In this document: in pieces, positions 29,607 through 37,291 of the stretch
Numbering within the stretch: the first letter of the stretch is position 1
Layout: each line of letters begins with the position of its first letter
Translations under genes and position numbers: made by a program
From: Thermogemmatispora sp.
GTDB lineage: Bacteria > Chloroflexota > Ktedonobacteria > Ktedonobacterales > Ktedonobacteraceae
Assembly: GCF_019683635.1 (NCBI RefSeq)
Contig: NZ_JADGIA010000004.1
Span: 1 to 62,523, forward strand
Direction of reading: 5' to 3'
Length of the DNA stretch: 62,523 bases
The notes under the pieces: generated by a model
Databases searched by the model: none
What the model was told of the DNA's origin: nothing
The model's input: only the letters and a program-made list of their open reading frames with translations

Positions 29607-32312
29607 GTGTCTAACATTTCTCAACGGCCAGCTAAATTTGTTGAACAGTATACGCACAGGCAGAGGATCGGGTACCCAGATATGGATTCACGTGAACAAA
29701 ATGGAAGCCGGCATGAGGCGGGTACCCTGATGGGGCCAGAGGGAACTGATGGCCGACTCGTGGCCTCGATGGTTTCCCCAGATATGAGCGTGGACACCGA
29801 TGCACTCATCACTGCAGCCCCGGATGCCGCCAGTCAGGATCAGGATCGGCAAGGGCGGCGACAGCGAACCTGGACGGTGATCTATCCATATCAGCCCTCT
29901 GATGGGCATCTGGAGGGCGATGCCCTTGAGCAATTGCTGGCGGAGACACGGGCTTATCTCTCGCCACAGGATCTGGCGAAGATCGAGCGGGCTTACGAGC
30001 TGGCGAATCGGGCCCATATGGGGGTACGGCGTCGCTCGGGCGAGCCGTATATTCAGCATCCGCTGGCGGTGGCGCTCATTCTGACTCAGATGCGCATTGA
30101 TGCCGATGGCATTGTGGCCGCCTTACTCCATGATGTGGTTGAGGACAGTGACTATACCTTGGAGGAGGTACGGGCCCAGTTCGGTCCGGCGGTGGCGACC
30201 ATTGTGGACGGGGTGACAAAGTTTGATGCTCTGGCCGGCAAGCCCGGGTCCGGCTCCCCATCCGGGAGCGGCTCGCGTACGCCTGCCCCCGAGTCCGAAC
30301 GCGCAGAGGAGGCTGTGCGCGATCTCAAGAGCCGCCTGCGCTCCGAGACGGTGCGCAAGATGCTCCTGGCAATGGCGGAAGATCCGCGCGTGGTGGTCAT
30401 CAAGCTGGCCGACCGCCTGCATAATATGCGTACGCTCAGCGCCATGCCGCCGACCAAGCAGCAGATTATTGCCCGCGAGACAAGCGAGATCTATGCGCCA
30501 CTGGCGCGACGGCTGGGCATGGGCCTGGTGCAGGCCGAGCTGGAAGATCTGGCCTTTTATTATCTGGAGCCGGAACGCTACGAGCGCCTGGCGCGTGAGG
30601 TCGAGGAGGAGCGGCGCAAACGTCAGCCGTATGTCGATGCCGTCTGCAGTGCCATTGAGGAGGAGATGCGCCGCGCCGAGATCCATGCCGAGGTGCTGGC
30701 CTGGCAGAAGCATCTGGCCAGTATCAACCGTAAGTTGCTGCAGAGCGGCGGCGAGGTTAGTCAGCTGCATGACCTGGTCTCGTTCCGTATCCTCGTTGAT
30801 AGTGACCACGACTGTTATCTGGCCCTGGGCCATATCCATGCTCTCTGGCGGCCAAAAGATGGGCGCATCAAGGACTATATCGCTACCCCCAAGGTCAATG
30901 GCTACCAGTCCCTCCATACGACGGTCTTCTGCCTCGATGATCGCCTCGCTGAGATCCAGATCCGCACCCACGAGATGCAGCGCACGGCGGACTATGGGAT
31001 CGCCAGCTATTGGTACCTGCGTGAGCGCGGTGGCTCTCGCCTCTCCTATCGCGAGATGATCGCCTGGATCGAGCAACTGCGCGAGTGGCAGCGTGAGCTG
31101 CCGCAGAGCGCCGATGATTTCATAGAGGCCGTCAAGGGCGATATCTTCCAGGAGCAGATTTTTGTTTTTACCCCCAAAGGGGAAATTAAGGATCTTCCCC
31201 GCGGATCGACCCCGGTCGATATGGCCTATCGTATCCACACGGATATCGGCGATCACTGCGCGGGGGCCCGGATCATCACAAGCCTGGGTGACAGCGAGCG
31301 CCTGGTGACGCGCCTGGTCCCGCTGGATTATGAGCTGAAGAGTGGCGAGATCGTCGATATTGTGACCAACCAGGCGATTCATCCGACGCGCGACTGGCTG
31401 ACCTTTGTGCGTACGGCCAACGCGCGCACCAAGATTAAGCGCTACCTGAAGAATCACGAGCGCGAAATCAATCTGCAGCTTGGACGCGAGCGGCTGGATC
31501 TGGCGCTGAAGGCGGCGGGAGCAGTGGGCCTTGAGGCTCTGCGCGATGAGGAGCTGCTGCCCTTAGCGAGCGCGCGCAAGTATCAGTCGGTGGAGGCCCT
31601 CTATGTGGCGCTGGGACGGGGAGATCTGCCAATAGAGGACCTGGTCGAGCAGCTGCTACCGGTCTTGCGCGAGCGTGGGGCGCTGCGGCAGGCCGAAGCT
31701 ACCGCTGGATCATCTGACTCCGAGGGGCTGCCTGTGGTCGCCGGTCCAGCGCTCAATGGGCACCGTTTGCCGGCACCGGGTGCGGCGGCCCAGACCAACG
31801 AGAGGCCTCCGGCCCCTGGCGTGGCTACCCGCCTCGCTCATTGCTGTTGTCCCCTTCCGGGGGACACCATTGCTGGCTTTCTCAGCCCGAATAAGGGGTT
31901 GATCGTTCACCGCCAGGATTGCCGTACGCTCCAGCGCTTCCGCGAGCGTGTCAAAGGTCGGATCTTTGCTCTGGACTGGTCGCAGGTCAAAACGCAGTCC
32001 TATCTAGCCCCTATCACTATTGTGGCCCGTGATCGGGCTGGCCTCCTGCGCGATGTTGCGGCGGTGGTCAGTGATGCCGGCATCAACATGACGGCGGTCT
32101 CCTCAACGACGAATCCGGCCTTACAGAAGGCCGTGATTACGGCAACGATGGAGATCCAATCGGTGGACCAGATCGAGCGCGTTTTCAAACGCTTGCTCCA
32201 GGTCAAAAGTGTGGTTAGCGTGCGGCGCAACCTGGGGCATCGGGCTGGCCAAAGTGGTAGAGTCAATAGCCGCGCAGGCGCAGAGAGTACCCTTTCCGAG
32301 CCGCTCAGCTGA
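29607..32312 (+). CDS. Bifunctional (p)ppGpp synthetase/hydrolase
   Basis: A 901-residue RelA/SpoT homologue that makes and destroys the alarmone (p)ppGpp. A poorly conserved head of about 100 residues precedes the HD hydrolase: GEPYIQHPLAVALIL, LLHDVVEDSDYT, KLADRLHNMRTL, all intact. The synthetase has RIKDYIATPKVNGYQSLHT and EIQIRT; the RxKD motif is of the bifunctional type. TGS (IFVFTPKGEIKDL), a Zn-finger-like CCCPLPGD segment and a C-terminal ACT domain (RDRAGLLRDVAAVV) follow. The start is uncertain: GTG 29607 or ATG 29682, which has GAGGATCGGG upstream. A paralogue without a working hydrolase site is 521 bp downstream. Confidence 0.93.
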   Translation: MSNISQRPAKFVEQYTHRQRIGYPDMDSREQNGSRHEAGTLMGPEGTDGRLVASMVSPDMSVDTDALITAAPDAASQDQDRQGRRQRTWTVIYPYQPSDGHLEGDALEQLLAETRAYLSPQDLAKIERAYELANRAHMGVRRRSGEPYIQHPLAVALILTQMRIDADGIVAALLHDVVEDSDYTLEEVRAQFGPAVATIVDGVTKFDALAGKPGSGSPSGSGSRTPAPESERAEEAVRDLKSRLRSETVRKMLLAMAEDPRVVVIKLADRLHNMRTLSAMPPTKQQIIARETSEIYAPLARRLGMGLVQAELEDLAFYYLEPERYERLAREVEEERRKRQPYVDAVCSAIEEEMRRAEIHAEVLAWQKHLASINRKLLQSGGEVSQLHDLVSFRILVDSDHDCYLALGHIHALWRPKDGRIKDYIATPKVNGYQSLHTTVFCLDDRLAEIQIRTHEMQRTADYGIASYWYLRERGGSRLSYREMIAWIEQLREWQRELPQSADDFIEAVKGDIFQEQIFVFTPKGEIKDLPRGSTPVDMAYRIHTDIGDHCAGARIITSLGDSERLVTRLVPLDYELKSGEIVDIVTNQAIHPTRDWLTFVRTANARTKIKRYLKNHEREINLQLGRERLDLALKAAGAVGLEALRDEELLPLASARKYQSVEALYVALGRGDLPIEDLVEQLLPVLRERGALRQAEATAGSSDSEGLPVVAGPALNGHRLPAPGAAAQTNERPPAPGVATRLAHCCCPLPGDTIAGFLSPNKGLIVHRQDCRTLQRFRERVKGRIFALDWSQVKTQSYLAPITIVARDRAGLLRDVAAVVSDAGINMTAVSSTTNPALQKAVITATMEIQSVDQIERVFKRLLQVKSVVSVRRNLGHRAGQSGRVNSRAGAESTLSEPLS

Positions 32313-32833: not shown

Positions 32834-35425
32834 ATGAAATATAGAAATGTGCACATGGTCGAGATGACGATCAAGCCTGAGTCAGGCCGGCAGTTGGGAG
32901 GGCGCTTATCCGTGTCTGCGGCGGGAGCGCCGGGGGAAGTGGAAACTGGCGGAGGTCTGACCACTGCCGTTGGAGAGAAGCCCCCCGACGAGCGCGCGGC
33001 AGAAGCCTTGCTGGCTCGTGTCCGCGAATATATGTCTCCCGCTGAGATTGAGCAGGTACAGCATGCTTTGCGTCTGGCGCAGGAGCGCTGTCGCGGTGTC
33101 AGGGGAAAGCGTGCCCTGCCCCCCCTGGAACATGCGCTGGGGGTGGCCTTAATCCTGGCCGAGATGCGCATCGATGCCATCGGCGTCGCCGCGGGCCTGA
33201 TTTTCGAGGCGGTTGATGCCGAGCTGCTCTCGTTGGAGCGCGTGACTGAGGAGCTGGGGCAGCCGGTGGCGCGCGTGGTGAGCAGTATGCTGCGCCTCAA
33301 CATTCTGGAGCGCAAGAAGCATGTTGGCGCTCAGCTTTTGCCTGCGGGCCGTACCGAGGTGGAGAGCAGCCGCGAGAGCCGTAAGCGGCGCAACCGCGAT
33401 GCGCTACAGCATCAGCAGGCGGAGACGGTGCGCAAGATGTTTCTGGCCATGTCCGATGATCCGCGGGTAGTTCTGCTGAAACTGGCCTATCGCCTGCACG
33501 CGATGCGTATGTTGCGCGATCCGGTTTTCCAGTATGACCCGCAGGAGCGGCTGACGATGGCGCGCGAGACGCGCGAGATCTATGCACCGCTGGCGGGCCG
33601 CCTCGGGATGTCACGCGTGGAGTGCGAGCTGGAGGACCTGGCTTTCGAGATCTTGCAGCCTGTGCAATATGCCTGGGTCCGTGATCAGATGGAGGCCGAG
33701 AAAAAGCAGTGGGGGGCCTATGTGGAGAAGGTCTGTGAGATTCTGCGCCGCGAGATGGCGGCCATCGGCCTGAAACATGTGGAGGTCTCTGGGCGCATTA
33801 AGCACCTCTACAGCTTCTACAAGAAGATTCTGCGCGCCGCTGGCCTGCCGACCCAGCCGAGCCTGCTTGGCACAGAGAGCCTGGAGGATTTGAAGCGCGG
33901 CCTGGATCTGAATCAGATCCATGATGTGATCGCCTTCCGCATCCTGGTGGAGACCACCCAGGATTGTTATCTGGCCTTGGGCCATGTCCATAGTCTCTGG
34001 AAGCCTAAAGAGGGCCGTATTAAGGACTATATTGCAAATCCCAAGCCGAACGGCTATCAGGCCCTCCATACGACGGTCTTCTGCGTCGACGAGCAGTTGG
34101 TGGAGATTCAGATTCGCACCTTTGAGATGCATCAGATCGCCGAGTATGGGGTGGCCATGCACTGGCACTATAAGGATGTGGGGGATCACGCTTCTCCTTC
34201 AGCCAAGGAGCTGTTGACCTGGCTACGCCAGCTGGCTGAGTGGCAGCGCGAGCTGCGGGCTTCGCAGAGCGGCGAGCCTGAGCCACCAGAGAGGTCGCGC
34301 AGCGATCCGTTCTCTGAGCAGATCTTTGTCTTTACTCCCAAGGGCGAGGTTAAGGATCTGCCAGTTGGCTCGACGCCGATCGATTTCGCTTATCGCATCC
34401 ATAGCGAGATTGGTAACCACTGCGCCGGTGCACGCATCATTACGGAGATCGGCGATGGCGAGAGCGAGCGGCTGGTAGCGCGCATGGTTCCCCTTGACTA
34501 CGAGCTGAAGAATGGGGAGATCGTCGATATTACAACAAGCCGCACGGCTCATCCGAGCCGCGACTGGCTCAATTTTGCGCGCACAGCCACGGCTCGCAGC
34601 CATATTCGCCGTTATCTGAAGGCCCACGAGCGCGATATCAATATCCAGATTGGACGGGAACGCCTGGATCGCGAGCTGAAGGCCCTCGGCGTCCGCGGAC
34701 TGGAGGTGCTGACGGAGGATCTGCAGGATCGTTTGCTGGAGGAGTACAACGCTCAGCGCGAGCAGCGGGAGCCGCGCCTGGCTTCCTTTGAGGATCTGCT
34801 GGCGGCTATTGGCAGCGATAAGATCCGCCAGCACTGGGTGGCGGTACGCCTGGGCGAGTATCTGCAGATCCGCGACCGCGATGGACGTGAGCGTGAGAAT
34901 GGCGCTCACCAGGAGGAGGAGCCGCTGCTGTCAACGAGCAGTACGAAGGAGGCTCCAGCGGTCAATCTCTATGTCGATGGGGTCACTGGCCTGCTGACAC
35001 GCCTGGCAAACTGCTGCTGCCCTCTGCCTGGCGATGCTATCGTGGGCTTTATTAGCCGTGGCCGCGGTGTGATTGTACATCGGGCCGATTGCCCCAATAT
35101 CGCCCGCTACCGCGAGCATAGCAGCGAGCGCTTGATTACGGTGAGCTGGGCCGGCGTGGAGCAGTCGCACTATCTGGCCCCGATCGTGGTGACGGCCCGC
35201 GATCGCCCGGGCCTGATGCGCGATATTGCCGGAGCCATCGCCGAGCTGGGCATCAATATGGCTGCTTTGTCTACTCATACCAACGGCTCGCGTGAGCTGG
35301 CGGTGGTCAATGCGACGCTGGAGATCGAGAACCTGGAGCAGCTCCAGCGTATCATTGCTCGCCTTGAACGAGTAAAGGATGTATTGCAGGTAGGGCGCGA
35401 TTTGAAGCGTAGCCGCAGGCACTAG
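32834..35425 (+). CDS. RelA/SpoT paralogue with degenerate hydrolase domain
   Basis: An 863-residue RelA/SpoT protein with the same TGS-CCCPLPGD-ACT tail as the gene before it. In the hydrolase domain the HD-type motif reads LIFEAVDAE where the neighbour has LLHDVVEDS, and KLAYRLHAMRML replaces KLADRLHNMRTL, so metal-dependent hydrolysis should be lost. The synthetase keeps RIKDYIANPKPNGYQALHT and EIQIRT. A 30-residue insert (around DLKRGLDLNQIHD) lies in the synthetase. So it is probably a synthetase-only alarmone enzyme, with RxKD rather than the E. coli RelA-like EXDD motif. The start at 32834 has no clear ribosome site; ATG 32855 is an alternative. Confidence 0.9.
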   Translation: MKYRNVHMVEMTIKPESGRQLGGRLSVSAAGAPGEVETGGGLTTAVGEKPPDERAAEALLARVREYMSPAEIEQVQHALRLAQERCRGVRGKRALPPLEHALGVALILAEMRIDAIGVAAGLIFEAVDAELLSLERVTEELGQPVARVVSSMLRLNILERKKHVGAQLLPAGRTEVESSRESRKRRNRDALQHQQAETVRKMFLAMSDDPRVVLLKLAYRLHAMRMLRDPVFQYDPQERLTMARETREIYAPLAGRLGMSRVECELEDLAFEILQPVQYAWVRDQMEAEKKQWGAYVEKVCEILRREMAAIGLKHVEVSGRIKHLYSFYKKILRAAGLPTQPSLLGTESLEDLKRGLDLNQIHDVIAFRILVETTQDCYLALGHVHSLWKPKEGRIKDYIANPKPNGYQALHTTVFCVDEQLVEIQIRTFEMHQIAEYGVAMHWHYKDVGDHASPSAKELLTWLRQLAEWQRELRASQSGEPEPPERSRSDPFSEQIFVFTPKGEVKDLPVGSTPIDFAYRIHSEIGNHCAGARIITEIGDGESERLVARMVPLDYELKNGEIVDITTSRTAHPSRDWLNFARTATARSHIRRYLKAHERDINIQIGRERLDRELKALGVRGLEVLTEDLQDRLLEEYNAQREQREPRLASFEDLLAAIGSDKIRQHWVAVRLGEYLQIRDRDGRERENGAHQEEEPLLSTSSTKEAPAVNLYVDGVTGLLTRLANCCCPLPGDAIVGFISRGRGVIVHRADCPNIARYREHSSERLITVSWAGVEQSHYLAPIVVTARDRPGLMRDIAGAIAELGINMAALSTHTNGSRELAVVNATLEIENLEQLQRIIARLERVKDVLQVGRDLKRSRRH

Positions 35426-35578: not shown

Positions 35579-37048
35579 CTACTCCAACCAATGGAGACGC
35601 AGGGCGCTGACTATCGCCTGAGTCCGATTGCGAGCTTTGAGCTTGCGCTTGATGGCCTGAATGTCTGCTTTGACAGTCTCAACGCTGAGGGCAAGCTGCC
35701 GAGCGATGGCCTGGTTGCTGGCTCCGGTGCTGAGCAGCTGCAGTATCTGGCGCTCGCGCGGCGTGAGTGGCGAGTCGGCGCTCCCCTGGGGAAAGCGCGC
35801 TTCGAGGCGTGTGCCTTGCCGGGGGGCGCTCTGGATCGTTAGACTGCCGCCGGCCCGCTGGACGCGCTCGCGCATCAAGTAGAGTCCCAGCTGGTGCTGT
35901 AGGCCACGCTCGCGTTGCTCTGGCGTAAAGCCCTTCCCGTTATCTTCGATCCTCACAACGAGTGTTCCATCCTGATGCTGTATCCTGATAATGACACGGC
36001 TGGCCTGCGCATGTTTGCGTACATTATTGAGTGCCTCTTGCACGAGGTGGAAGACCGTTGGTTCGAGATGGTGAGGGATGGCAAGCGGCTGCTCTATCCT
36101 TTCTTCCAGGACGATGGACGGCTCGGCTCGCTGGAAGTCTTCCAGTAGCGAGTGCAGGGCCAGCTCAAAGCTGACCTCGCCGAGCGGTGCGGGGGCCAGG
36201 GTGGCAATGGTTTCGCGTAGGCCCTCCAGGCTCTGGCGCAGTTGCTGTTGGGCTTCGGTCAGGGCGTGCCTGGCTTCCTCTGGCTGGCTCTCCAGCCAGC
36301 GGCTTGCGGCCTCTAGCTGGTGAAGGATGTGCGCTAGCTCCTGAGCCAGGCTGTCGTGGAGAGTGTGGGCCAGGCGCGCTCGTTCTTCTTCGATGGCCGT
36401 TTCTGAGGGCGGTAAGGGTCTGGGCGCAGCAGCGGCTACCGCTGCGCCGCTTCGTCGTCTATGGGGACGGCTCTCGGTCGCCTGCTCATAAGCGACTGCC
36501 ACTGTTGGGGACGAAACGGCGGGGAGGTAGCGTACAAGCAGCGACAGGCAAAGCTGAAAGAGGTTACTCTTGAGCAGGGTCACAGGATCACTTTGAGTGG
36601 CTAATTGGCTGCCCTGGCGGCGGGTGAAGCAGAGGACCAGGAGACCGCTGGCAGGCTGGCCAGCTTGCCCAAGAGGGCAGAGGAGCAGGCTCCCAGCGGC
36701 GCCGCTCCAGTAGCGCTCGCTGGGCAGAGCCTGCGGCTCTTGCTGGATAGAGGAGATGAAGCGCGGGGCTTGTGCGCGCATGACGCTGCCGAAGATGCCA
36801 CTCAGTGGAATAAGATCGGTGGTACCAGCCTGACGCTGGCTGTGGCTGTGAGCAGGAGAACGCGAAGGCGGGCGGCCACTGCTTGCCAGCAGGCGCAGAT
36901 GCTGGGTGTCTTCTTCGCAGAGGAAGAGCAGGCTGCGCTGGGCAGCGCTACCCTGGCGCAGAAAGTCGAGAAGCAAACGTCGTCCTTCTCCCTCGGGCTG
37001 GCGTTGGAGGCGCTCGATGATCTCTAGAAGCCGCTCCGCTCTGAGCAT
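35579..37048 (-). CDS. HisKA_3-type histidine kinase with its own LuxR DNA-binding domain
   Basis: A 489-residue soluble signalling protein. The N-terminal 165 residues look like a GAF-type sensor. The HisKA_3 dimerisation box holds the phospho-acceptor His in AHTLHDSLAQELAHIL (about residue 230), and the ATPase has HLVQEALNNVRKHAQ and VVRIEDNGKGFTPEQ (N and G1 boxes). After about residue 425 is a LuxR/GerE helix-turn-helix: LTPRERQILQLLSTGASNQAI, then SVETVKADIQAIKRKL. There is no receiver domain and no membrane helix. So sensing, kinase and DNA-binding parts lie in one chain, unlike the usual NarX/NarL split. Start could be 37048 or 37090; both have weak ribosome sites. Confidence 0.9.
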   Translation of the reverse strand: MLRAERLLEIIERLQRQPEGEGRRLLLDFLRQGSAAQRSLLFLCEEDTQHLRLLASSGRPPSRSPAHSHSQRQAGTTDLIPLSGIFGSVMRAQAPRFISSIQQEPQALPSERYWSGAAGSLLLCPLGQAGQPASGLLVLCFTRRQGSQLATQSDPVTLLKSNLFQLCLSLLVRYLPAVSSPTVAVAYEQATESRPHRRRSGAAVAAAAPRPLPPSETAIEEERARLAHTLHDSLAQELAHILHQLEAASRWLESQPEEARHALTEAQQQLRQSLEGLRETIATLAPAPLGEVSFELALHSLLEDFQRAEPSIVLEERIEQPLAIPHHLEPTVFHLVQEALNNVRKHAQASRVIIRIQHQDGTLVVRIEDNGKGFTPEQRERGLQHQLGLYLMRERVQRAGGSLTIQSAPRQGTRLEARFPQGSADSPLTPRERQILQLLSTGASNQAIARQLALSVETVKADIQAIKRKLKARNRTQAIVSALRLHWLE

Positions 37049-37291
37049 GGGAGGTCTCTCTCGATCAGGGCTGTGGTGAAGAGCAGGCACGCTCGCTGGT
37101 GAGGTTGGTACGACGGCATGGCCGTTGTTGTAGTTTGCTGTGCTCTTGCTCTTACCATACCCAGGGGATACAAGCTATGTCTTCCTATGTAAGAGGAAGC
37201 TTCTATGACGAGCAGTGGGTAGCCATCGGCGGAGAAGATTCGCTGTTGTCCTCCGCTCTCCCCGGGAGCAATCAGACGCCAGGGTGGCTGA

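Follow-up and report, generated by a model that had tools for sequence, protein, structure and literature searches.

A receiver-less fusion of a HisKA_3 histidine kinase to a LuxR helix-turn-helix in Thermogemmatispora, and its predicted partner regulator

The analyzed stretch of Thermogemmatispora sp. DNA (62,523 nucleotides; hereafter the window) encodes a histidine kinase that carries a LuxR-type helix-turn-helix (HTH) in the same chain, without a receiver domain. This architecture, proposed in the first-pass annotation, is borne out by the open reading frame, by the Pfam matches and by its presence in all six genomes of the genus (Table 1). We lean towards the view that the protein is bifunctional, combining a kinase/phosphatase of the NarX/DesK type, which acts in trans on a response regulator encoded elsewhere in the genome, with a DNA-binding protein, in two halves that are separable.

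Table 1. Coordinates of the fusion gene, its domains and related features (window positions unless a locus is given).
Feature	Position	Strand	Details
Histidine kinase-LuxR fusion gene	35579..37048	(-)	single ORF, 489 aa, stop included; ATG at 37048
N-terminal region, weak GAF-like sensor domain, aa 1-175	36524..37048	(-)	sub-threshold GAF_2 match and family alignment
HisKA_3 dimerisation/phosphoacceptor helices, aa 222-288	36185..36385	(-)	Pfam 2.1e-14; AlphaFold2
Phospho-acceptor His231, HDxxxQ motif (HDSLAQ)	36356..36358	(-)	HD in 24/24 and Q in 24/24 of the kinase clade
HATPase_c with N, G1 and G2 motifs, aa 330-421	35786..36061	(-)	Pfam 8.4e-18
LuxR/GerE helix-turn-helix, aa 427-482	35603..35770	(-)	Pfam 5.2e-18; AlphaFold2
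16-mer AGGAAGACATAGCTTG / AGGAAGACAYASCTTG, upstream of the fusion gene	37171..37186	(-)	counterpart L190:6358-6373 (-) upstream of the regulator gene
ATPase-less homologues in relatives	L179:6070-7767; L180:3324-5021; L181:6305-7891	(-); (+); (-)	sensor, DHp and LuxR HTH kept

The HisKA_3, HATPase_c and GerE matches each lie well above the curated Pfam cut-offs; an alternative start codon of the gene is the GTG at 37090. AlphaFold2 confidently predicts the dimerisation/phosphoacceptor (DHp) helices (residues 216–254 and 256–283), the ATPase (CA) domain and an HTH of four helices, mostly with pLDDT over 90, and the best solved structures among the Foldseek matches to this model are DesK and the CA domain of VraS. 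Most of the N-terminus is modeled with pLDDT under 50 (residues 37–160 and 174–206). It matches GAF_2 below the Pfam cut-off (E = 0.0041) and has no PDB sequence matches at E ≤ 1, and its 175 residues are conserved across the family in the family alignment. A membrane part is not seen in the sequence of the protein. The catalytic motifs are present as H231-D-x-x-x-Q, Asn342, Asp369/Gly371 and Gly388. Within the clade of related kinases, Asp369, Gly371 and Gly388 are kept in all members with an ATPase domain (21/21), and Asn342 is invariant in the 13 alignment rows in which it was checked (13/13). The HDxxxQ motif has a role in phosphatase activity.

A Pfam scan of the 489-residue protein returned no Response_reg domain, and none of the open reading frames in the window matched, at E ≤ 0.01, a receiver profile derived from NarL regulators of the same genome. 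The linker between the CA domain and the HTH comprises only about five residues, with no receiver remnant between HATPase_c and GerE, and with such a short linker a mechanical coupling between kinase and HTH appears plausible. The earlier statement that no receiver lies in the chain or beside it is thus correct for the protein and for the window, but it does not extend to 13 of 24 relatives, in which a convergent regulator adjoins the kinase gene.

Judged by eye from the sequence, the fusion gene is flanked upstream by a gene for an RluB-like pseudouridine synthase and downstream by a convergent RelA/SpoT-like gene. Two RelA/SpoT-like genes are arranged in tandem at window positions 29607–32312 and 32834–35425 (+), and similar frames are seen again in the regions compared within the genus and, in g2, in the vicinity of the kinase. 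At the HD hydrolase site the first gene reads LLHDVVED and the second LIFEAVDA; the motif is presumably lost in the latter, which suggests that it encodes a hydrolase-dead paralogue.

A full-length fusion frame without stops is present in 6/6 genomes of the Thermogemmatispora-like genus, the five other proteins sharing 66–94% identity with that of the window, and such a shared open frame is the result of neither chance nor sequencing error. The comparison with relatives that the first-pass annotation had called for extends this to the class, where a profile of the CA-HTH junction identified the complete fusion in 18 of 47 genomes, one copy each, all 18 within one family of 29 genomes. Kinases that this profile missed, the ATPase-less relatives among them, surfaced only by searching beside the regulator described below, so more ATPase-less forms may have escaped it, those of g3 and g4 included. 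Complete, HTH-less and ATPase-less forms, 24 kinases in all, group in a single clade with support 99/95.

In a scan of named genomes covering 80 loci, the Thermogemmatispora locus was the sole fusion, with none among the 79 loci L032–L110. Plasmid records yielded 1071 matches, 52 of them covering 80% or more of the query, and in the two records inspected (H14 and H24) kinase and regulator are adjacent, separate genes. A viral scan gave one partial match. At E ≤ 1e-30, a junction-type profile had no matches outside the family among 400 Chloroflexota genomes, and none in the phyla of a Calothrix record (L034; 0/244), of a Rhodobacteraceae record (L083; 0/299) and of a Bacillota record (L035; 0/299), although with only 9–15 candidates scored per genome these zero counts are no proof of absence. 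That a kinase and a NarL-type regulator are often encoded by separate, neighboring genes elsewhere, and that the 79 loci hold no fusion, would fit a sequencing error that merged a kinase gene with a regulator gene. The occurrence of the same frame throughout the genus and of the complete fusion in the class, together with the lack of a receiver remnant in the short linker, reduces the probability of such an artefact to a negligible level, and we consider it ruled out by the relatives.

The first-pass annotation saw no receiver in the protein or beside it and proposed a search for a receiver-only partner; this search did yield a candidate. A NarL-type regulator is encoded in the window's genome at G000:C226:33423–34082, unlinked to the fusion (which is located on contig C35), and an orthologous REC-LuxR regulator is present in 24/24 genomes that contain a member of the kinase clade. 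The regulator profile was built from seven regulators located tail-to-tail with the fusion in relatives. At E ≤ 1e-62, it identifies exactly one gene per genome in 24 of the 29 family genomes, the same 24 that have the kinase; outside the family, at the same threshold, the regulator is found in f2 (6/6) and not in f3 (0/1) or f4 (0/11). If genomes were independent, the probability of this co-occurrence would be 8e-6, but the five family genomes without either gene belong to just two genera (g3 and g4), so its real weight is far less and the co-occurrence reflects few independent events.

The regulator gene is convergent beside the kinase gene in 13/24 genomes (L135, L136, L138–L142, L148, and L179–L183). 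It lies beyond the fetched kinase region in the remaining 11 (the window's genome, G001–G006, G013, G015, G016, and G018), some of these unlinked cases resting on short contigs. In the window's genus, where the regulator is unlinked, orthology is the basis for pairing the two proteins. The trees of kinase and regulator share their main groups (g1 apart; g2; g8 with g13; g7 with g10). In the receiver of the regulator, the acidic residues, the phospho-acceptor Asp and the Lys are invariant (30/30). Its recognition helix, SEKTVKNYLS, is almost invariant and unlike that of the kinase HTH; given this difference, the two proteins probably read different sites.

The regulator can work without the fusion, as it is present in the six f2 genomes, in which no fusion was detected. 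The window's genome contains 64 receiver matches, and another partner for the kinase is therefore possible. In f2, the orthologous regulator has as its neighbor a receiver protein in which a GGDEF-like part was noted by eye (L192:678–1715 (+) and L194:6388–7443 (-)), and no kinase of the window protein's clade was seen beside it.

A 16-mer upstream of the fusion gene, conserved in most members of the genus, is identical at 14 of 16 positions to a 16-mer upstream of the regulator gene (Table 1). In the window's genome, exact matches to the pattern are confined to these two sites, from which the pattern was itself derived, so that the search is circular. Among 3964 random 300-base segments of the same genome, 121 (~3%) reached at least 14 of 16, and a third site, kept in G002, G003, G004, and G005, falls at the very start of the coding sequence, in the first codons, of an open frame unrelated to these genes in the three of these four that were inspected. 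On these grounds, the shared motif was set aside and is a weak lead only.

The 24 kinases comprise three forms. Eighteen genomes have the complete kinase with HTH. In G043, G045, and G016 the HTH is lost and HisKA_3 and the ATPase domain are kept; in G021, G024, and G046 the whole ATPase domain is lost in frame and the sensor, the HDxxxQ helix and the HTH are retained. The HTH-less kinases of G043 (open frame of 239 aa; the one of the three covered by the Pfam scan) and G045 (298 aa) lie beside the regulator, and that of G016 (217 aa) has its regulator on another contig. In the tree, the HTH-less members branch from within the HTH-bearing ones, so that loss of the HTH would most simply be secondary.

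In the ATPase-less trio, approximately 131 residues of the CA domain are missing, as judged by alignment gaps relative to G012, a genome of the same genus that retains this domain and is sister to the trio (support 99/94). A Pfam scan of G024, the one member of the trio scanned, shows no HATPase_c match, and HisKA_3 and GerE remain. The three open frames span 514–551 codons with the regulator tail-to-tail, and they form one branch (support 97/91), pointing to a single loss of the ATPase domain. Pairwise dN/dS values within the trio are 0.015/0.023, 0.007/0.205, and 0.022/0.237 for the HTH and 0.035/0.049, 0.030/0.196, and 0.035/0.177 for the DHp; with the pair G024–G021 being uninformative, these suggest that both domains are mostly under purifying selection. 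The HTH-less form thus suggests that the protein can serve as a kinase in the absence of the HTH, and the ATPase-less form that the HTH can fulfil its role in the absence of the kinase engine. Since either half has been lost in some relatives, neither is essential everywhere.

These forms bear directly on the suggestion, made in the first-pass annotation, that the protein is a one-component regulator whose HTH would be gated by the fold of the kinase or by its autophosphorylation, with no need for a receiver. The idea fits the three ATPase-less relatives, whose open frames retain the sensor, the DHp and the HTH, and agrees with the absence of a receiver from the chain and the window. For the window protein we consider it unlikely, as the regulator is conserved in every genome with the kinase clade, the catalytic motifs are retained wherever the ATPase domain is, and in the three relatives without HTH the kinase core stays, in two of them beside the regulator. 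With its catalytic residues kept and a regulator that has all phospho-acceptor residues, the window protein is therefore not simply a one-component regulator.

The recognition helix of the kinase HTH reads VKADIQAI or a close variant in 5/6 genomes of the window's genus and VKAHVQRL in G004; in much of the family it is VKSHVHHI. As the helix of the genus is unusual, its HTH may have a changed target or weaker DNA binding. Across 15 genus pairs, dN/dS (ratios of means) is low in every domain, at 0.21 for the HTH (mean dN 0.113, dS 0.538), 0.15 for the CA domain (0.090, 0.604) and 0.08 for the DHp (0.072, 0.932), with a mean dN of 0.204 and dS of 0.614 for the N-terminus. The unusual helix, the dN/dS above that of the other two domains and the dispensability of the HTH in G043, G045, and G016 are what would be expected if it had no DNA site of its own and served as a dimerisation or docking module pairing with the HTH of the regulator, or were a vestige. 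Yet the domain is still under purifying selection, its fold is supported by the GerE match and by four helices predicted at high pLDDT, and it is kept where the ATPase domain has been lost, which together make this reading rather improbable.

In the bifunctional reading that we favor, the protein would be a soluble two-component element whose GAF-like N-terminus senses a cytoplasmic signal. The NarX/DesK-type core would autophosphorylate on His231, and phosphoryl groups would be handed to the NarL-type regulator on C226 in trans, or removed from it by virtue of the HDxxxQ motif. The C-terminal LuxR HTH would bind DNA, with the kinase dimer acting as a transcription factor or being anchored at a promoter. 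The DNA-binding domain would have joined the kinase/phosphatase before the family radiated. Phosphotransfer between the two proteins, binding of the HTH to DNA and its dependence on the state of the kinase are inferred, as are the signal and the targets. A more specific version, which we offer tentatively, is that the HTH places the kinase/phosphatase on the DNA by the regulator's sites, with local phosphorylation and an occupancy that may feed back on the kinase. One sub-lineage would have shed the ATPase to become a GAF-DHp-HTH regulator, in which the former dimer helix serves as a transmitter or as a phosphatase coupled to DNA binding.

Among the literature searched, with subscription journals mostly outside it, we recognized no HisKA_3 kinase joined to a LuxR HTH without a receiver, including in the accessible parts of PMC5847659, PMC1183210, and PMC12070737. 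The accessible part of a survey covering 991 LuxR proteins of actinobacteria lists REC, PAS, HDc, AAA, CHD, FHA, PKc, TPR, and CSP as partners, and does not name a histidine-kinase ATPase among them (PMC3466318). Two further proteins were observed in the course of the analysis. A second HisKA_3-HATPase_c-GerE fusion without receiver, with a longer linker, is encoded in G043 (L197:4575–5549 (+)); it does not belong to the window protein's clade and sits on a very long branch whose place in the tree is unsure, and as a separate fusion it raises the possibility that the architecture arose more than once. In the window's genome (C206), L014:276–1640 (-) encodes a receiver and LuxR HTH preceded by a possible degenerate kinase-like N-terminus, identified by eye and without a Pfam match.

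The fusion makes two-component and one-component regulation harder to tell apart. Its relatives amount to natural deletion mutants (kinase with HTH, kinase without HTH, and DHp with HTH but no ATPase), each with the same regulator. The series makes testable both the control of an attached DNA-binding domain by the conformation of a kinase dimer and the decay of a two-component system into a one-component one.

With kinases of the NarX/DesK/VraS (HisKA_3) type, the window protein shares HisKA_3 with HDxxxQ, HATPase_c with its N, G1 and G2 motifs, and its predicted partner is likewise a regulator of the NarL type. It differs from them in having no visible membrane part and a LuxR HTH directly behind the CA domain, and in its family the gene of the predicted partner either converges on the kinase gene or is unlinked to it. 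NarL/FixJ response regulators have the same C-terminal GerE/LuxR HTH, but where they have a receiver the window protein has a kinase. Hybrid one-chain two-component systems of the kinase-receiver-HTH type are known fusions, and in them, too, a single chain contains the sensor, the kinase and the DNA-binding domain; in the window protein, however, no receiver stands between kinase and HTH, and a separate regulator exists. One-component LuxR regulators, finally, combine a sensor with an HTH in the absence of a receiver. The ATPase-less proteins of G021, G024, and G046 look closest to these, whereas in the window protein the kinase appears to be complete, with both DHp and CA.
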